Part shown: in pieces, positions 25,102 through 33,618 of the stretch
Position numbering within the stretch: position 1 is the stretch's first letter
How the letters are laid out: each line of letters begins with the position of its first letter
The notes under the pieces: model-generated
Told to the model about the DNA's origin: nothing
The model's input: only the letters and a program-made list of their open reading frames with translations
Databases searched by the model: none
Assembly (NCBI GenBank): GCA_025057975.1
Contig: JANWUV010000010.1
Location: 62,001-126,000, forward strand
DNA: 64,000 nucleotides
Direction of reading: 5' to 3'
Source: Chloracidobacterium sp.
GTDB taxonomy: Bacteria; Acidobacteriota; Blastocatellia; Chloracidobacteriales; Chloracidobacteriaceae
Program-made: the position numbers and the translations under genes

Positions 25102-26361
25102 TTACCGGCGGCTGCGTAGCCGTTCGATGGCCTGCTTCAAGCTGATGCGCATCCGTTCAAGCGATTCGCCAAGCTCACCGATTTCATCGCCTGTGTTGAC
25201 GGCGATGGGTTCGTCTAATTCGCCAAGGCTGATGCGGTTGGCGGCTTCGGTGAGTTTCAAGATGGGCTGCGTGAGACGCTGCGACAAAACAAACGCCACG
25301 CCGATACCCAACACCAGCGATATGCCAGTGACCACAGCGATAATCAGCAGGGTGGTGTTAAAAACCTGACTGAAGTAGCTCTCGCGGACGCCGACCCCAA
25401 CGTACCCAAGGATGGTCACGTCATCCGGCGCTTTGATTGGCGCAAACGCCGTTTTGTAGGCGCCGCCCAGCAGATTGTTGTTGACGGCTGTGGGTTTATC
25501 GGCGGCCAGTTCGCTTTGGAGGGCGACGCCCAAGGCGCGTGGGTCGCTGGACGAAATCACCTTTCTGTCCTTCGCCAAAACCAACGCCACAGCAACGTCT
25601 TGTAAGTCGCGGTAGAGCGTTTGCTTGACTTCGCGCGTCAATGCCGTCAACGGACGATTCTCATCCTGCGGAGCATTGTTGATGAGTTGTCCAACGACGA
25701 CATAGCCCAGCGCCCGGTTGCCGGAGACCACCGGCGCCATGGCTTCAATTGTCAACCCAACCGGCGACGCCGGATTCCGATTGAATTGCTCCGCAAGCCC
25801 AAAGCTTTTGAGCAGGTCGGGCGGCTCATTGACAGCCCCGGCGACCTGAGCGCGTAGCAGGGCGTCCGGCTGATTACTTTCAGCGGCGTTTTTGGCTTTG
25901 ATGAACAAGGGGTTGTCGCCGAAGGAAGCCTCGCCGCCGCCGGCATTGCGCACCAGCACTTGCCCCTTGGTGTTGAGGATGGCGATAAAGTCCACGCCGG
26001 AGGACTCGACGCGCTGCCGGATGAGTTGAAGCAGCTTCTGCTGCCCGCCGGCCTGACTCTGCTGCGCAACTTGGGTTGGATTGCCGGAGGCGCTAGAAGC
26101 GCCGGTCGGCGGAGCCGCCGAGTCAATCAAATTTTCTGCCGCGACGGTCTGCGCTGTCGCCTGCGCCACTTCACGCAGAGCTTGTTGCCGTGAACGAAGA
26201 ATCCGGTCGGCCAAACGGGCGTCTTTCTCAATGTCGCGCCGCGCATTGCCGTCAATCGTGCCGCTGACAATGACGACAAACGCCAACGCCGACAAAGCCA
26301 ATGGCGCAAAAATCAACAGCGCCGCAAAAATGGCGAGCTTGTTCCGAATGTTAAGTTTCAT
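25102..26361 (-). CDS. Cache-HAMP transmembrane receptor without output domain
   Basis: A 419-residue inner membrane receptor. An N-terminal helix (IRNKLAIFAALLIFAPLALSALAF) is followed by a large periplasmic sensor of about 270 residues (double-Cache-like: IAILNTKGQVLVRNAGG, VVVGQLINN, GYVGVGVRESYF), a second membrane helix (TLLIIAVVTGISLVLGIGVAFVL) and a HAMP domain (LSQRLTQPILKLTEAANRISLGELDEPI) ending 30 residues later. There is no kinase, cyclase or methyl-accepting domain, so it must act through a partner. The ATG at 26361 matches the N-terminus; an in-frame TTG is four codons earlier. It sits directly in the DUF4388/Roadblock block and sucC follows by 10 nt. Confidence 0.85.
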   Translation of the reverse strand: MKLNIRNKLAIFAALLIFAPLALSALAFVVIVSGTIDGNARRDIEKDARLADRILRSRQQALREVAQATAQTVAAENLIDSAAPPTGASSASGNPTQVAQQSQAGGQQKLLQLIRQRVESSGVDFIAILNTKGQVLVRNAGGGEASFGDNPLFIKAKNAAESNQPDALLRAQVAGAVNEPPDLLKSFGLAEQFNRNPASPVGLTIEAMAPVVSGNRALGYVVVGQLINNAPQDENRPLTALTREVKQTLYRDLQDVAVALVLAKDRKVISSSDPRALGVALQSELAADKPTAVNNNLLGGAYKTAFAPIKAPDDVTILGYVGVGVRESYFSQVFNTTLLIIAVVTGISLVLGIGVAFVLSQRLTQPILKLTEAANRISLGELDEPIAVNTGDEIGELGESLERMRISLKQAIERLRSRR

Positions 26362-26511
26362 GGGGGAAAGCAAAAGGATGTCTGATGAATCGCAACGTAC
26401 ATCTTCGTGTCCATCCTAACGGAGCTTCTTGGCCGATTCGAAGCTCATGGGGTTAGGACAGCGTCAGGTGGCAGGAATTTGCGACGCGCCGCCGCTTCGC
26501 CGAACCACGAA

Positions 26512-27318
26512 TCAGGCGTATAGGTGTTGCATAATCTCCAGCATCGCCTCTTGAAACTTGACCCGCCGTTCGTTGTCTGGAATTTCTTCAGCCAGGCGCT
26601 CGGCCAGCGACGGCATCATATCCTTGGGTAGTTGCCGCAGTTTGAAGCCAAGCGCCTCGGCGCAGTCCTCAAGGACAATCGGGGCCATCGGCCCGATGGC
26701 GCGCGTCAGCTCTCGTTCCGTCTGGTGGAGAATGTCTTCCGACACGGCGTCCACCACCGTATCTTCCTCCTGACGCTCGCCAACGTACTCCACCAAGCCC
26801 AAGTCATACAGGCGAACAATGACCTTCGAGGCCATTAGTTCATTGAGCTGCGTAATGTCGCCGATTTCGCCGACGGTACGAACACCGTCGAGGTTTTGGA
26901 TGACCGACCAATCTTCCGCGCGCAAGGAAAATTCCTTCATCGAGCGGGAGGAAAGCCGAAATACCGCGCGGGCGGATGGCACGACCCGGCGGACGCTTTC
27001 CCATTCCGTCGCATAGGTGACGCACTCCAGCAAAATCTCTTCCGTCTGGAGGTAGGTTGTCCGCTCATCGGTCGGCGTGTCCGTCGCCGTGAAGCTGAAC
27101 TTACCGCTGCCCCAAGAGAACAATCCGTATACGGCGTCTTCTCCAACGGCATCCTCGTAGACGGCGTGTACGATTTGCCCGTTGTCGAAGTACACTTCAC
27201 CCTGCCGTCCGTCGTCATGAACCAACTCCAAGACGCCGGTTCGATTGCTGGCGTGGAGTAGACGGAGGACATCCATGAGTTTGAGTTGCGCCAGATTGCC
27301 ACTGAATGCATTTGACAT
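26512..27318 (-). CDS. DUF4388 (PatA N-terminal-like) signalling protein
   Basis: A 268-residue protein. Residues 1-110 form a DUF4388 domain: FSGNLAQLKLMDVLRLLHASNRTGVLEL, YFDNGQIVHAVYEDAVGEDAVYGLFSWGSGKF. It resembles PatA/PilG-like N-termini seen in cyanobacterial and acidobacterial signalling proteins. The middle part (120-190) is winged-helix-like and the last 60 residues are a helical domain with RAIGPMAPIVLED found in other signalling proteins. Start is the ATG at 27318, before which the reading frame continues to a 34-residue extension that looks noncoding. It lies between a Roadblock gene and the receptor gene on the same strand. Likely a scaffold or adaptor, by inference. Confidence 0.75.
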   Translation of the reverse strand: MSNAFSGNLAQLKLMDVLRLLHASNRTGVLELVHDDGRQGEVYFDNGQIVHAVYEDAVGEDAVYGLFSWGSGKFSFTATDTPTDERTTYLQTEEILLECVTYATEWESVRRVVPSARAVFRLSSRSMKEFSLRAEDWSVIQNLDGVRTVGEIGDITQLNELMASKVIVRLYDLGLVEYVGERQEEDTVVDAVSEDILHQTERELTRAIGPMAPIVLEDCAEALGFKLRQLPKDMMPSLAERLAEEIPDNERRVKFQEAMLEIMQHLYA

Positions 27319-27422
27319 GGCGTGCGTCCCCAAGGCGAAGAAAGTGTCCGTCGGTCGCACCGGCTGAGCCGAAGAGGTTTGGGGCGCGCAAAAGCATCGC
27401 CGCCAACCACACGAGCCCAACG

Positions 27423-27914
27423 CTACTGGGCGCGATTCATGGCTTCAAGCAGTTCCCAACTCGTCGCATCGAGTCGGTCGCGCGTGAGAAGATTACGACG
27501 CAACACGCTGACGCTGACCCGCAAGCCAGCCACGGCACGGTCTTTCTTCAGCTTGTCGGCTGCCACCTTGACAGCCATACGCATGGTGGGCAGGTTTGCG
27601 GTGGGCGCACTGACGAGTATAAGAAAAACTTCCTGCGTACCGTAAGTGGTCTCAATCATCAAGTCAAGGTTCGTGAAGGTCGTCACGCGCCCATCAGCGA
27701 ACACTATCGAGATTTCCTCGACTTTGTCGTATTGCAGTTCAGCGACGGCGGAAAGTTGCGCCAGCAGGACGCCCATTTGCACCGTCGCCTGCGAGTTGAG
27801 CGCAAACTGTCCAGCGCTCAACAACACTTCACCACGATTATTGACCAGCAGGGCACTCTTGACGCCCGGCAGGCGCATCAGGTCTTGCAGAAAAACTTCG
27901 TGCGCTTTTGACAT
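27423..27914 (-). CDS. Roadblock/LC7 domain protein
   Basis: A 163-residue protein of the Roadblock/LC7 (MglB) fold: VFLQDLMRLPGVKSALLVNNRGEVLLSAG, then VQMGVLLAQLSAVAE, ISIVFADGRVTTF and LDLMIETTYGTQEVFLILVS. Such proteins regulate small Ras-like GTPases (MglB is the activator of MglA in Myxococcus). No GTPase is encoded in the window. The ATG at 27914 has AAGGAG six nt upstream. It stands between two DUF4388-type genes and is likely co-transcribed with them. Its partner is unknown. Confidence 0.8.
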   Translation of the reverse strand: MSKAHEVFLQDLMRLPGVKSALLVNNRGEVLLSAGQFALNSQATVQMGVLLAQLSAVAELQYDKVEEISIVFADGRVTTFTNLDLMIETTYGTQEVFLILVSAPTANLPTMRMAVKVAADKLKKDRAVAGLRVSVSVLRRNLLTRDRLDATSWELLEAMNRAQ

Positions 27915-27960
27915 GGCGGCTCCTTGGAACACTGACGCCTTGCCGAAACCAGAACGCCGT

Positions 27961-29223
27961 CTATCCGGCCGAGGGCGCTAAGATTTCATTTGTTGCAATC
28001 TCCAATCCATAGCGCTCGAACTCGGCTTGGCGTCGCTGCTGCAGCGACCGCAATGCCTCTTCGATGTGGCGGCGGACGTAGGTTTCAGGCGAGCGACGAT
28101 CCAAGTCGGCTACCGTCAGTCGCAACGCTTGGGCCAGACCGAACACAAAGTCTGCCGGGCGCGCTTTGCCGCGGAAGGTCGCTACTCCGCCGGCATACTC
28201 AAACTCAGCAGCGAATGGGTCTAGGAAAGGGTAGCGGGTCGCAATGTTGATTAGGGCTTCGCGGAAAGAGGGCAAAAAAGAATCTGTCCGACGGAGGGCG
28301 TCAGCGACGCCGACTTCAACGGCGCGGACAATTTCCCCCATCAGCCTGACCAACTCTGCATATTGCTCGCGGGTCAGTGGACGGATGCTTTCGTCGTCGA
28401 GTTCGAGCGGCGAATCGTCATCTTCGGTGTCGCCCACCAAGACGGTGTCCACCACTGGCGTAACTAGCGGCGGTCCTTGCGCCTGCGGGACGCGAATGGT
28501 CGGGGGCGGCTCCTCGGTGGTGAGGCGGGACGGGCCGTTCCGCACGACTCCGGCGCCAGCCGCAGCGGCCTCCACACGCGACGGTGCAGTCGTTGGAGAT
28601 TTGAGCGGCGCAAGGGCCGTCGGAGGCGCACTCGTCCCACGGTAGACATTGAAGACAGCCCCACCAGGGACACGTTCATAGATAAGCTTTAGTCCTTCCA
28701 CGCCCAGTGCTGTTTCGTACACCTCAGCGCCAGCCGTAGCAGTGGAAACGACTGCTTCAGCGTGATTATCAAGGATGTAAATAATGCCACCGCCCCGTTC
28801 CTGTTCAAAGAGAACCTCGATGTACCAAACCCCGCCGCTTTTGATGAGTCTCTCAACCAACTTTTCAAGGTTGGTAAAGTCGGAGGATAGGTCGCGGTGA
28901 ACGGGTTCGCCGGTGATGACGCCGGTAATTGCTTGGATGACCTCTTCGGGATGCTGAAAGAAACCAACCTTACCGTTGCGCGCCTGCGCGCGCGACAGCA
29001 AGCCGTCAAGCGCTTCGTGTTCGCGCTGAACCGCGTGATCGGTTACTTCGTAGGCATTGATGATTTGCCCACGTGACAGAAAGACGTAGCCGGTGTAGCC
29101 CCAAAACTCGACGCAGACATAGCCCGTAAACTCATTGACCTGCAAATCGGCCAGCAGGGCAGCGACGTTGACGTAGGACGTGCTGAGGTTTTCGTGAACC
29201 GGCTTTCCACGCGGAACAATCAT
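27961..29223 (-). CDS. DUF4388-like signalling protein with proline-rich linker
   Basis: A 420-residue protein. The N-terminal 100 residues again look DUF4388-like: VAALLADLQVNEFTGYVCVEFWGYTGYVFLSRGQIINAYEV. Residues 110-215 form a second, similar domain (LSSDFTNLEKLVERLIKSGGVWYIEVLFEQERGGGIIYILDN). A Pro/Ala/Thr/acidic linker follows (215-300) and a helical C-terminal domain (300-420: REQYAELVRLMGEIVRAVE, SFREALINIATRYPFLDPF). No enzyme motif is visible. Start is the ATG at 29223, two codons after an in-frame TTG. Read in the same direction as the neighbouring Roadblock gene with a gap of 46 nt. Role inferred from context only. Confidence 0.7.
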   Translation of the reverse strand: MIVPRGKPVHENLSTSYVNVAALLADLQVNEFTGYVCVEFWGYTGYVFLSRGQIINAYEVTDHAVQREHEALDGLLSRAQARNGKVGFFQHPEEVIQAITGVITGEPVHRDLSSDFTNLEKLVERLIKSGGVWYIEVLFEQERGGGIIYILDNHAEAVVSTATAGAEVYETALGVEGLKLIYERVPGGAVFNVYRGTSAPPTALAPLKSPTTAPSRVEAAAAGAGVVRNGPSRLTTEEPPPTIRVPQAQGPPLVTPVVDTVLVGDTEDDDSPLELDDESIRPLTREQYAELVRLMGEIVRAVEVGVADALRRTDSFLPSFREALINIATRYPFLDPFAAEFEYAGGVATFRGKARPADFVFGLAQALRLTVADLDRRSPETYVRRHIEEALRSLQQRRQAEFERYGLEIATNEILAPSAG

Positions 29224-29266
29224 GGTCAACTGTACGGTCCCAACCCAAGCTACGCCGTGAGGTGGG

Positions 29267-30118
29267 CTACATCGTCAGCGGTCCGGGGTACGGGCCGGGC
29301 GGCGTCAGCACACCAGTACCGCCCAGCAAGCCGGTCGAAACCCTATCCGTTGCGCCGTTGATGCGCGCCTGCATCTTCCGAAAGATGCGGTCAATGTGCG
29401 GACTCATCGTTTCAAACCGAACGGCGGCACTGAACTCAATCAGAGCCAAGTAGTTTTCAAGGTCGAAAACCATCACCTTTTTAGGGCCGACGCTGATTGT
29501 CATGCGCGACAACGCTCCGACGCGCGCCGGTACGCTGATGAGACGGCCCAAGTGCACCAACAGCGCCACCATCATCCCCAGCTTTTCCGCCGATTTCACC
29601 TTGCTGGCCGCCTGCACTGTGCCGTCGCGCGATACAGCCAGCGCTGAATCCACGCCCTTGACTTTGGTCAGGTCATTGACCAACGACTGGTAGATGTTGA
29701 TGACGCGCGCCGCACCGCTGGTTGTTGTTGGCGTTCGAGTAGTGGAAGCCGCTGTCGGCGTTGCAGCGTCGCTTTGGACGCCTTCGCCGCCACCTTCACC
29801 ACGTTTCGCGCGCGCTTCATCCAGCAGGCGCAGACCCTCCATGATGATGTTGGCCCATGGCTCAAAAATGGTTCGGGTCGGCGCCGGAATCCCAGTGTCA
29901 ATCCGAAACGCTCCCTGGTCGTATTCCAACGCTTTGTATACCGCTTCCACTCCAACCAGATTCCCAAGGCGCGCATCCACCACCTCGCCGTCGGCAAAGT
30001 AGAAGACCCCATCGCCAATCGGGTAGTGAACCGTCAGTCGCGCTGTGTTGCGGCCGACACAGTTGATTTGAATGATGTCCACTAGTGCGAGGTCGGTCAG
30101 ATCGCCAACAAGCGGCAT
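29267..30118 (-). CDS. DUF4388-Roadblock fusion protein
   Basis: A 283-residue fusion. Residues 1-95 are DUF4388 (LVGDLTDLALVDIIQINCVGRNTARLTVH, YFADGEVVDARLGNLVGVEAVYKAL). A Thr/Ala-rich linker (115-145) leads to a Roadblock/LC7-like domain (150-265): VNDLTKVKGVDSALAVSRDGTVQAAS, LGMMVALLVHLGRLI and VMVFDLENYLALIEF. The fusion itself shows that both folds work together, as expected from the separate genes downstream. The ATG at 30118 starts the domain with no extra residues. First gene of the block on this strand, with 148 nt to the membrane Zn-ribbon gene upstream. Confidence 0.8.
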   Translation of the reverse strand: MPLVGDLTDLALVDIIQINCVGRNTARLTVHYPIGDGVFYFADGEVVDARLGNLVGVEAVYKALEYDQGAFRIDTGIPAPTRTIFEPWANIIMEGLRLLDEARAKRGEGGGEGVQSDAATPTAASTTRTPTTTSGAARVINIYQSLVNDLTKVKGVDSALAVSRDGTVQAASKVKSAEKLGMMVALLVHLGRLISVPARVGALSRMTISVGPKKVMVFDLENYLALIEFSAAVRFETMSPHIDRIFRKMQARINGATDRVSTGLLGGTGVLTPPGPYPGPLTM

Positions 30119-30266: not shown

Positions 30267-33191
30267 TCAACCGACCGCTGACCGCCGCCGCCACAGCCAA
30301 GTTCCAGTCACAAAGAGTAGAAGGCCGGTCACAGCCAAATAGACGCCATAGGGAATGTCGCCCCATGGGACGCTTAAAACGACAACCGCCAAGAGGTGAA
30401 AACCAAGCGCCGTACCGCCGAGCGTCAACGGCGCGCGTAAACGTCCGGCCAGACCGACCAACAGCGCCGTCAGCGCCGTTGTATCTGCGAGGATGTCGTA
30501 AAACAGAGCTACGTCGCCGGTCAGACGACGATGGAGCGCCTGCAAGACAACTGGAAAACAGAACGTCAGACTTCCCAGCCAGACCAGCGCCTCCGACAAA
30601 GTCGGACTGCCCCGCTGGAAGCGTTGTTTGAGCCACCCCGTTGCGCCCACGATCAGACCATAGGGAAGCGTGACGCTGGCGATCCATGCGAACGCCGGCC
30701 AGCCAAGGTAACGCAACCACCACACGTAGGCTGCACCGCCCCAGACTAAGCCGCCCACCGCATACACATCGTGCGCTGCGGCGTCGGCGGCTATCAGGCT
30801 CATGACGGCCAAGGCGACAGCGGAGCAAACCAAGCCGCTGCCGGCCGCTAGGCTGTTGTCCAGCAGGGCAGCTGCCAAGCCGCCGCCGGCCGCCAACCAA
30901 AGCCATCCCTGCCCGCCGATGGCCAGCGCCGACCAGAGCGCCGCTCGTTCCGTCGTGCCGCGTCGCCAACGCCAACCCAACCACGTCACGCCGTAGCCAT
31001 ACGCCACCCCCGGCATCGAGAGGGCCGCCGTCGGACACCCTATGAGCCGCGCCGCTTGGAGAACCGCCAACCCGCCGCATACCGTAGCGGCCAGCGCGGC
31101 TGGCGCTTCCTGACGCCGCCACGCGACCACCCAACCGGCGACGGCCGCCGCTGTCAATGTCAAACCGTGTCCGCCCGCCTGTCCCCGTGACGCAACGATG
31201 CCTGTCAGCGCGACTAACGCGCCAAAAACGAGGACGCCCAGTGAAACCTGCCGGAGCGCCCACCGCAGCATCCACTCATCCGCGACCGGCCGGGCGACGC
31301 CGACCACCACTGCCGCCGCCGACACGACGATCCATGGCATAACGGTGAACAGGTCGGACTGACCGGTACCGCAGGCGGTCGCCAGCACGCCAAGGTACGT
31401 CACCGTCCACATCGCCAGTGCGTACGCCTGCTGCATCCAGCGGACGCCGGTGGTCAGCCAGCACAACCCGCCGTATCCAACCACGACGCCAAATCCAAGC
31501 GTCTGCACAACCCGCCAATTCTGCGCTGCCGCCGCCAAAAGCCCCAGCAGGCAGCCCAACATAACGACATCCAGCGCCACGCGCGATGGGACAATCGCTG
31601 GATGGTTGGGGAGACCGAAGTCGAGACCGAAGCTCGTATCCACTTCCGTGCTATAACCCTGTCCAAAGCGGACGCCGAGCAGTTCTACGCCCAAGCGCGT
31701 CACACAAGCGACCATCGGCGGCGTCAAGATGACTAACGGGTGAGAGGAACCCAAGAGAGCCGGCGTACCGCTGATCGCAAGGACGGCCAGCGTTAGGGTG
31801 AGAAGCGGAAACCAAGTCAACCCTGCCTGCAACCGCCGGACGCTCCATGCCGCCAACAAAGCAAGCCCCGTCCAGTAGGACGCCGTTTCCGCCGACGATA
31901 AGCGCACTGTAGTCGTAGGAAAGCAGACCTTCGGTAGGATGACCACCGTCAGCCAGAGCGCCACTACACCGGCCGTGAATTGTTCCAGACCACTCAAGAA
32001 CAGGGACGGTGGCAGTATTCGCCGAGGTGGTTGGCGCAAGGTTTCTCGGTGGACGGCCACTGCGCGTCCAGCAGCGGCAGCCCACAGCCAGCCGCACCAA
32101 CCAACCACTTGCCATGCCGGCGGCAGTTCGAGTGTGTTGAGCCATCGGCTGTAGCTGAGGGTCAGCAAGCCGAGGCCGCCGACAGACCACCCCCAGACAG
32201 CCGCTGGCGCGACGACTAGACAGCCCAAACTGAAGCAAGCGACGCCGACTACGCCGCCGACCCACGCTTGGCTCAACACCAGCGAGCAGAGCGCACACAG
32301 AGTGACGGCCGCCCCGCCCCACCACCAGCTTGCTATGGCTATGATATGCGCCGGATGCAACGCCGACCAAAAGGCGCAGCCGACGGCGGCGGCTGCGACC
32401 GATGAGACGGCGACTGCCGGCGTTGAGAAGAGATCAAGCCCCAGCCACATAGCGGCTAGCAACAGTGAAGGGACAGCCATGTGTGGCAGCAGCGGGTCGT
32501 TCAGCCGAACCGCCGCCAGCCAGTACGCTAAGCCGCAGGTCAAGCCGTACACCCAGCGGCCGCCTGCCGGAAGTCGGCCGTGGTGGACGCCGAGCCACAG
32601 TGTCGCAGGCAGCAACAATGCGCCTACCCACAGTCCGCCACGGGCGACGAGATCATCCGGCCGGCGGCCGACGCCCCGGACGCCTAAAACCGACACCCCG
32701 ACCGTGAAGGCGGTCAGCAATCCAAGCTGAAGCGTGGGATGTTCCAGAATGACTTGTCGTAAATAAATCAGCGCGCCGACGACCATCAGCAGTCCGCCGC
32801 TGTACACCATGGTTTTGAGCAACCAAGTAGTGGACACCCTAAGGTCGGCTGCGGTTTCTCTATTAGGTTGGAAAGGCGGCTGTGGTGGTGCGGATGGCGG
32901 TTTGGCGTCGGCCGTTTTCAGTTCGGCGGCAGGCGCAATGTCGGTGGGCTGGGCTGGATTCGGCGTCGGCGGTAGGGCGTTTCGTTTATGAGACGGCAGA
33001 AGCTGTGTCAGGATGGCTCGTCGCTCGGCGTCCAGCGCCGCTAGCCGTGCAAAGGCCGCCGGGTCGTAGCGTAGCCCGCAGCGGATGCAGAACTTCCACT
33101 GGGGAGACAGTCGAGCGTCGCAATTCGGGCAGATCACAGTTCTTGAGTCGGCGTAAGGCGAGTTGTACCCTGAAGGTGCTTCAGCCGACAT
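30267..33191 (-). CDS. large polytopic membrane protein with N-terminal Zn-ribbon
   Basis: A 974-residue protein. The N-terminus has a double-Cys Zn-ribbon (CPNCD at about 22, CIRCG at about 36) and a Pro/Ala-rich linker to about residue 110. The remaining 860 residues are more than half hydrophobic and contain roughly two dozen membrane helices, with short loops and repeated G-x-W/L-rich turns. Such a plan (cytosolic ribbon plus many helices) resembles DUF2157/DUF2339-type predicted membrane proteins, whose functions are unknown. The ATG at 33191 has GGGAGGG 8 nt upstream, which decides the start. GC-rich and Trp-rich. Role unknown. Confidence 0.8.
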   Translation of the reverse strand: MSAEAPSGYNSPYADSRTVICPNCDARLSPQWKFCIRCGLRYDPAAFARLAALDAERRAILTQLLPSHKRNALPPTPNPAQPTDIAPAAELKTADAKPPSAPPQPPFQPNRETAADLRVSTTWLLKTMVYSGGLLMVVGALIYLRQVILEHPTLQLGLLTAFTVGVSVLGVRGVGRRPDDLVARGGLWVGALLLPATLWLGVHHGRLPAGGRWVYGLTCGLAYWLAAVRLNDPLLPHMAVPSLLLAAMWLGLDLFSTPAVAVSSVAAAAVGCAFWSALHPAHIIAIASWWWGGAAVTLCALCSLVLSQAWVGGVVGVACFSLGCLVVAPAAVWGWSVGGLGLLTLSYSRWLNTLELPPAWQVVGWCGWLWAAAAGRAVAVHRETLRQPPRRILPPSLFLSGLEQFTAGVVALWLTVVILPKVCFPTTTVRLSSAETASYWTGLALLAAWSVRRLQAGLTWFPLLTLTLAVLAISGTPALLGSSHPLVILTPPMVACVTRLGVELLGVRFGQGYSTEVDTSFGLDFGLPNHPAIVPSRVALDVVMLGCLLGLLAAAAQNWRVVQTLGFGVVVGYGGLCWLTTGVRWMQQAYALAMWTVTYLGVLATACGTGQSDLFTVMPWIVVSAAAVVVGVARPVADEWMLRWALRQVSLGVLVFGALVALTGIVASRGQAGGHGLTLTAAAVAGWVVAWRRQEAPAALAATVCGGLAVLQAARLIGCPTAALSMPGVAYGYGVTWLGWRWRRGTTERAALWSALAIGGQGWLWLAAGGGLAAALLDNSLAAGSGLVCSAVALAVMSLIAADAAAHDVYAVGGLVWGGAAYVWWLRYLGWPAFAWIASVTLPYGLIVGATGWLKQRFQRGSPTLSEALVWLGSLTFCFPVVLQALHRRLTGDVALFYDILADTTALTALLVGLAGRLRAPLTLGGTALGFHLLAVVVLSVPWGDIPYGVYLAVTGLLLFVTGTWLWRRRSAVG

Positions 33192-33618
33192 CGAGCAGCC
33201 CTCCCGGCGCTTGCCACTAAGGTTCTCTTTTGAGTCAGGCTGTGTGCGCGTTGTTCTAAGGTAAACCCGGCTTCGTGCTGGGCCGTTGACTGTCAACCCG
33301 CTTGAATGGACGGAAGGTGGTCGCCGCCGACCGTAACCAGTGTACGGCGCTCTAGCTCGTCAGAGAAACTATATCCTTACGAGTGTAGGTAAGGTCTCCA
33401 CAAATCAAAAATGCCTGATCCTGCGGCTCGTCATGTTGTCTTTCTTGGTAAGTTAGGGCGATCTTGGGAAGTGATGGCAACCCATACCGGCGCTTTGGGC
33501 TGCGCCGGCAAGGCCGGTGAAGGCAGCGCGCACTTAGATTCACATCGGCCATGGTACACAGCGTGCATTGTACGTTCGAAGCCGTGCCTAACAACGGAGG
33601 CCTCTTTTGCAGCGCGTT
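33192..33618. other. gene-free stretch with operator-like palindrome
   Basis: 427 bp between the stop of the dipeptidyl peptidase gene and the start of the membrane Zn-ribbon gene, both on the minus strand. I see no convincing coding. The perfect 13-bp palindrome GTTGACTGTCAAC lies at 33285-33297; on the minus strand it contains TTGACA, a consensus -35 hexamer, but no good -10 follows at 16-18 nt. A GCGCCGGC/GCCGGT hairpin region lies near 33493-33525. Nothing else is recognisable. Confidence 0.4.

Follow-up and report, generated by a model that had tools for sequence, protein, structure and literature searches.

How does a membrane receptor whose only cytosolic part is a HAMP domain pass on its signal? 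This question is raised by five genes, termed R1 to R5, in a 64,000-nucleotide stretch of Chloracidobacterium sp. DNA (the window; C10:62001-126000 of a 3.52 Mb genome). Open reading frame (ORF) calling and Pfam searches identify them as five minus-strand ORFs at 25102-30118, in agreement with the original prediction, which described the block as a self-contained sensory relay and considered the missing kinase and GTPase to be the puzzle. The analysis described here indicates that R1-R5 probably constitute a split two-protein transmembrane receptor with a cytoplasmic relay of its own, in which the STAC effector R4 docks on the receptor R5. R5 and its cytosolic end are laid out as follows.

25102..26361, minus strand: R5, 419 amino acids (aa); transmembrane segment 1, periplasmic Cache domain, transmembrane segment 2, HAMP domain and a short conserved tail (Pfam Cache 8.5e-10, HAMP 3e-15)
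25135..25287, minus strand: HAMP domain of R5, residues 359-409 (same Pfam match; PDB profile match to Af1503)
25105..25167, minus strand: end of HAMP helix 2 and tail of R5, residues 399-419 (...ERMRISLKQAIERLRSRR), putative STAC docking site, from conservation

The stop codon lies about 10 residues past HAMP in R5 and in its 12 orthologues alike, and all 13 proteins share the C-terminus ...AIERLR(R/K/S)R, so that the predicted Cache-HAMP receptor does end after HAMP; Pfam finds no kinase domain beyond it. Invariant columns among the 13 proteins amount to 16 of 290 in the periplasmic part, 13 of 40 in HAMP, and 13 of 21 in the helix-2 end and tail. R5 is not a truncated relic, because its end is its best-kept region. 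Loss of an output domain by frameshift is ruled out by the 12 orthologues that stop at the same codon region, and the truncation by sequencing error that the original prediction had allowed for falls on the same ground. The explanation that a kinase or chemoreceptor domain was lost from R5, leaving a degenerate receptor whose gene neighbourhood is accidental, draws on the presence of an output domain in most HAMP proteins; it is hardly credible given the identical C-terminus in 13 orthologues, the tail being the most conserved part, and a gene order kept across families of several classes. The genome has no second receptor of the R5 kind; in its other three HAMP matches, histidine kinase or HD domains follow (domains named by eye). 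The best PDB match of the R5 profile is the HAMP domain of Af1503 (E 2.4e-11; best chemoreceptor 8.6e-6), and the match runs through the aligned end SIERLRRSLKVAMESL, which shares the conserved tail of R5.

The genes are transcribed in the order R1, R2, R3, R4, R5, followed 10 bases downstream by sucC, with intergenic gaps of ~40-150 bases and an R1/R2 overlap in family f21; the corrected starts are ATG 27914 for R3, ATG 27318 for R4 and ATG 26361 for R5. With R2 as query, relatives were found in 22 of 247 Acidobacteriota genomes, and 13 (the own genome and 12 others; families f1, f5, f21 and f37) have R1-R5 in identical order and strand, which answers the proposed check of gene order in other Acidobacteria. 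Further copies, complete or end-truncated, occur on Blastocatellia and other Acidobacteriota contigs of a named collection that partly stems from genomes already in the sample. That 12 other genomes share these five genes, their order and the R5 end cannot be put down to chance or to a sequencing error. sucC lies 3' of the cassette in family f1 only, and the flanks in other families are unrelated; since the flanks vary between families while the order is kept, the unit is R1-R5, a self-contained sensory cassette as had been proposed. Reduced forms also exist: R1-R3-R4-R5, without R2, in two genomes (G074, G131; loci L161, L167) and R2-R4-R5 on one Deinococcales contig (L094). No recurring transporter gene was seen among the flanks listed for ten loci, in which most flanking genes were read only by eye. 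Neither a sigma-70-like promoter nor an intergenic terminator on the minus strand was found by a consensus scan, and such a scan is uninformative for this phylum. In the literature library searched, no paper names both DUF4388 and Roadblock.

The partner of the HAMP end, for which the original prediction had suggested a search, is suggested by the adjacent gene, R4.

26512..27318, minus strand: R4, 268 aa; DUF4388/PATAN domain, winged helix and C-terminal STAC-like domain (Pfam, AlphaFold2 model, alignments)
26770..26988, minus strand: winged helix of R4, residues 111-183 (VIA-align)
26521..26742, minus strand: STAC-like domain of R4, residues 193-266 (structure alignment, profile and motif)

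R4 had been described simply as a DUF4388 protein, which is correct as far as it goes (Pfam 6e-24) and overlooks the two domains that follow. The AlphaFold2 model of R4 (mean predicted local distance difference test score, pLDDT, 87.6) places four helices in the C-terminal domain (194-208, 212-222, 232-244 and 249-267), which form two alpha-hairpins; helices 1 and 2 flank an IGPMA motif, and the linker has nine residues. The same layout of two hairpins has been described for Af1502 (PMC4834066), whose structure, 5a1q_A, is covered whole by the R4 C-domain in VIA-align (69/69 residues, root-mean-square deviation (rmsd) 2.9, 19% identity). A whole-R4 profile matches 5a1q weakly, and a C-domain profile built from R4 and partner proteins of other phyla has 5a1q as its top PDB match with the GPxA motif in register. 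The C-terminal domain of R4 is taken as STAC-like because motif, profile, structure alignment and gene context agree. R4 is the sole STAC copy found in its own genome. The STAC-like domain is unmatched by Pfam in the cassette and relative-locus proteins examined, and with no Pfam model found, receptor-STAC pairs are easily overlooked.

In archaea, receptors like Af1503 are without an effector, and genomic coupling to STAC proteins that bear an LGPx(x)A motif is frequent among them (PMC4834066). A corresponding pairing was surveyed in the 247 Acidobacteriota genomes with a profile of HAMP plus tail, reading the best loci outside the cassette and comparing receptors that end no more than 3 aa after the match with receptors that have at least 129 further residues. 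A first-pass STAC profile that predates these loci finds STAC near 11 of 13 HAMP-ending receptors and 0 of 13 receptors with output domains (Fisher 2e-5). With the refined profile, to which new members had been added, the counts are 13/13 and 0/13 (Fisher 2e-7), and in the two loci gained by refinement, Roadblock-GPIG proteins can also be recognised by eye. Counted by family, STAC adjoins HAMP-ending receptors in 8/8 vs 0/8 with an output domain (1.6e-4); within 1.5 kb, the counts are 10/13 vs 0/13 (p 1e-4). The pairing is reciprocal, with 20 of 21 STAC matches in the 247 genomes adjoining a HAMP-ending receptor. The sole exception is a REC-DUF4388-STAC-like protein (L192, G129:C12:63347-63511) that has no such receptor within 1.5 kb, a case of STAC joined to a response regulator. 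In other phyla and named Acidobacteriota contigs, STAC was found in all eight HAMP-ending loci (L094-L099, L101 and L102; seven by profile, L096 weakly among them, and L099 by eye) and in 0 of 4 output-domain loci.

On this basis, the Cache domain of R5 would sense a periplasmic ligand and shift the HAMP helices, and the signal would leave by way of HAMP helix 2, at whose conserved end the STAC-like domain of R4 would dock. This docking model is patterned on the structure of CbrA: there, STAC lies packed beneath the membrane domain, whose motions it has been proposed to transmit (PMC13022988). The DUF4388/PATAN domain and winged helix of R4 would then act on R1-R3 through DUF4388 and Roadblock contacts; R1-R4 may form a complex, with R1-R3 serving as a switchable scaffold for a downstream target.

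Several points weigh against this reading. The VIA-align Z of 7.4 for the R4 C-domain against 5a1q_A is lower than the caution level for helical bundles (~13), and the profile match (E 0.024) is weak by itself, so the STAC case rests on the agreement of both. The flanks of the control loci are partly shorter than those of the HAMP-ending loci. The first outgroup loci were chosen with a tail-derived pattern and the HAMP-plus-tail profile was built partly on them; thus tail similarity is partly selected in the first eight loci, while their STAC neighbourhood is not. The tail motif is not exclusive, as the HAMP-kinase proteins of L145 and L147 carry a similar stretch. The STAC-HAMP interaction itself is a prediction. 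The cassette encodes no catalytic protein that would point to its final output, and the presence of the GTPase MglA in all 13 carriers is phylogenetically confounded.

The loci further reveal that STAC is carried by different proteins. It is fused to DUF4388-winged helix in the cassette, L153, L161 and L167, and to Roadblock in L162 and L166 (Pfam) as well as L097, L101, L164 and L165 (by eye). Ser/Thr kinases, some with TPR repeats, carry STAC in L144 (G176:C11), L154 (G073:C67), L155 (G121:C11) and L168 (G055:C184), situated at the kinase C-terminus (two copies in L168, L154 and L155) and with HAMP-ending receptors adjoining. As STAC rides on varied effectors beside these receptors, the constant pair is receptor plus STAC and the effector is exchangeable. 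R4 acting in trans explains the absent output domain of R5 better than a lost kinase, because relatives carry STAC on effectors beside HAMP-ending receptors; the missing kinase is accordingly less of a puzzle than it had seemed. A wider reading is somewhat favoured, namely that HAMP-ending receptors are a widespread bacterial class with output in trans, apart from the fused histidine kinases and chemoreceptors, that STAC is their common plug on interchangeable effectors (PATAN-winged helix, Roadblock, Ser/Thr kinase), and that the archaeal Af1503-Af1502 pair is a stripped-down form.

The kinase loci also bear on where the relay of the cassette ends. It could end on a Ser/Thr kinase encoded elsewhere and recruited by R4 and the Roadblock proteins, an arrangement that would be the two-part version of the STAC-kinase fusions found beside HAMP-ending receptors in G055, G176, G073 and G121; on a Holophagaceae contig (L097), moreover, a kinase gene whose product has a Roadblock-like C-terminus (by eye) adjoins Roadblock-STAC and receptor. 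We regard this outcome as unlikely, since a kinase is absent from all 13 cassettes and R4 holds the only STAC found in its own genome.

The winged helix of R4 invites the further explanation that R4 is a transcription regulator, which STAC tethers to R5 until a signal arrives. Resemblance to MarR-type regulators in sequence and fold speaks for DNA binding, and yet the best structural matches are GATOR1/SEA subunits, PqqD and other protein-binding versions, led by a GATOR1-KICSTOR subunit (VIA-align Z 10.7, rmsd 2.2, 70 residues aligned) with MarR-like regulators next. Many receptor partners, moreover, are Roadblock-STAC or kinase-STAC proteins without a winged helix, and a role of R4 in transcription is thus quite improbable. 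Foldseek with the R4 model gave no match at E <= 0.001, its top rows being GATOR1/SEA subunits aligned via the winged helix alone. No claim of relatedness between R4 and GATOR is made, as the matches are limited to the winged helix and lack a significant Foldseek score. We also note that the winged helix of an R4 relative (L167:6108-6893) weakly matches Pfam HTH_NPRL3 of GATOR1 (4e-4, below cut-off). A deep relationship between PATAN-winged helix and NPRL-type proteins is possible.

The preferred model, in which R4 docks on R5 and acts on R1-R3, leads to the three remaining proteins.

29267..30118, minus strand: R1, 283 aa, conserved first gene of the cassette (Pfam)
29813-30106, minus strand: DUF4388/PATAN domain of R1 (Pfam 1.3e-18)
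29444-29686, minus strand: Roadblock-like domain of R1, after a low-complexity linker (Pfam 3e-4, sub-threshold)
27961..29229, minus strand: R2, 422 aa; start possibly ATG 29223 (weak Pfam DUF4388, 0.008; model and alignment)
28912-29205 and 28630-28908, minus strand: two DUF4388-like repeats of R2 (AlphaFold2 model)
27979-28371, minus strand: mostly helical C-domain of R2 with an invariant P-x-L/F-DPF motif (model and orthologue alignment)
27423..27914, minus strand: R3, free Roadblock-like protein, 163 aa (Pfam Robl_LC7 8e-4, sub-threshold; orthologues)

Pfam agrees with the predicted DUF4388 domains of R1 and R4. For the Roadblock parts of the predicted R1 fusion and of the free protein R3, its Roadblock/LC7 (PF03259) matches stay below the cut-off of 23 bits (R1 20.9, R3 19.5). 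For DUF4388/PATAN (PF14332; cut-off 25), R1 (67.6) and R4 (84.8) lie above and R2 (16.7) below. The C-terminal half of R1 matches the R3 profile (hhalign E 4e-6), and the best PDB profile matches of R3 are Roadblock and LAMTOR2 proteins, both weak (E 0.5-0.9). The description of R2 as a DUF4388-like protein with a linker stands with the weak Pfam match and the model (pLDDT 79), which shows a disordered linker before the C-domain; the second repeat had been missed, and the strand/helix order is seen twice. A profile match to the R4 DUF4388 domain gives second support for the assignment. Matches of the R2 model to sliding clamps and acetolactate decarboxylase (Z <7) are taken as chance, and the structure search barely covered the C-domain. 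Solitary R2-like proteins, with no other cassette genes, occur at L065, L068-L073 and L076 in genomes of the class Blastocatellia (families f2 and f3; G009, G025, G243, G038, G114, G227, G075 and G141); they are mostly short and lack the second repeat.

The Roadblock proteins raise the question of the GTPase that had been reported missing. In fact, the contig also carries a canonical mglB-mglA pair (C10:36882-38052), which lies outside the cassette, ~24 kb ahead of the window. The absence of a kinase and a GTPase thus appears to be largely explained, the GTPase being encoded elsewhere and the effector being seemingly a separate STAC protein. One may ask whether the system is instead an MglA/MglB-type polarity or pilus module, in which R1 and R3 regulate MglA, the PATAN domains bind PilB and the receptor steers twitching, with or without a part for STAC in the coupling of R5 to R4. 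pilB-pilT-pilC lie on the same contig as well (C10:50348-55005, outside the window), Synechocystis PATAN regulators bind PilB, according to work cited in PMC10519157, and PATAN genes are found near some mglA/mglB genes (PMC4316618). MglA is present in 13/13 cassette carriers, but also in 161/234 genomes without the cassette, and this co-occurrence (p 0.012) is set aside as evidence because it is confounded by ancestry. The cassette windows examined contain no mglA, mglB or pil gene, and the identity of R3 as a plain MglB is not supported, since it is only remotely like the MglB of its own genome (hhalign probability 3%). STAC is also found on Ser/Thr kinases, so that pili are not the general output. 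A polarity or pilus module is therefore conceivable, with the odds somewhat against it. Under the preferred split-receptor model, the downstream target may be MglA, the motor of the type IV pilus or both, these being the lead candidates. The PilB of this genome carries an MshE-type domain for cyclic di-GMP.

At least 15 DUF4388/PATAN genes are present in the genome, cassette included, which points to a large paralogous use. They include C6:225141, C6:226823, C4:166338, C8:90733, C8:70102, C5:186411, C8:189884, C9:120532, C5:165670, C6:153063, C7:82488 and C3:262035, and carry REC, TPR, DnaJ, FHA or cyclic-nucleotide-binding parts (by eye). A Roadblock-like gene (C5:228846, L023:1483-1854) follows directly after a secretin (PilQ-like) gene and starts inside the secretin ORF. 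Upstream of R1, at 30267-33296, a gene encodes a protein of 1009 aa that has many membrane spans and, at its N-terminus, a zinc ribbon; among the loci seen, it is conserved only within the genus.

The working of HAMP domains is commonly studied on Af1503, a standard model that has no known effector. The bacterial loci pair such receptors with STAC on recognisable effectors, whereby the output of HAMP-only receptors becomes testable; the Ser/Thr kinase-STAC loci are good test systems in which an enzymatic output is measurable. Many uncharacterised DUF4388 and Roadblock genes also gain a receptor. The role of STAC has been described as unclear (PMC13022988), and our literature search on STAC domains with HAMP or Roadblock found only that CbrA preprint to be relevant.

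The cassette shares features with several known systems. Like the MglA-MglB module, it contains proteins that probably have a Roadblock fold; R1 and R3 differ in being divergent and below the Pfam cut-off, with no adjoining GTPase gene, and R3 lacks the pairing with mglA that is typical of MglB. No GTPase gene lies in the R1-R5 operon, and a search with the MglA profile found none in the reduced cassettes or in the named loci either. DUF4388/PATAN in R1, R2 and R4 recalls the PatA-type response regulators of type IV pili and phototaxis, from which the cassette differs in having no REC domain (Pfam, R1-R5), chemotaxis or phosphorelay components; REC-PATAN proteins are present elsewhere in the genome. 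The Streptomyces conservons (CvnA-D) likewise combine a HAMP membrane receptor, a Roadblock protein and a winged-helix protein in one operon, and R4 relatives show weak DUF742 matches. This is in contrast to the HAMP plus kinase modules of CvnA (PMC4316618), as R5 has no histidine kinase-like domain; the lack of a GTPase gene is a second difference between the cassette and a conservon. In the SLC5-STAC histidine kinases of the CbrA/CrbS type, STAC is similarly situated between membrane input and cytosolic output. These are single polypeptides with a transporter as input and a histidine kinase, whereas in the cassette the input is Cache-HAMP and a second protein carries STAC.

The closest likeness is to Af1503/Af1502, in which a HAMP-only receptor adjoins a four-helix STAC with the GPxA motif, as R5 adjoins R4; Af1503 is also the closest solved structure to the HAMP and tail of R5. 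The gene for Af1502, a stand-alone protein of 68 residues, shares an operon with an MgtE-like transporter gene (PMC4834066); beside the cassette, no transporter gene was seen in flanks read mostly by eye. Unlike Af1502, the bacterial STAC is part of a protein that also contains DUF4388 and a winged helix, and three more DUF4388/Roadblock proteins are encoded with it. R1-R5 is hence a variant of the Af1503/Af1502 kind and not a plain member, because it has the HAMP-only receptor and the adjacent STAC, with the latter borne on a larger protein in place of a stand-alone STAC of 60-90 aa.

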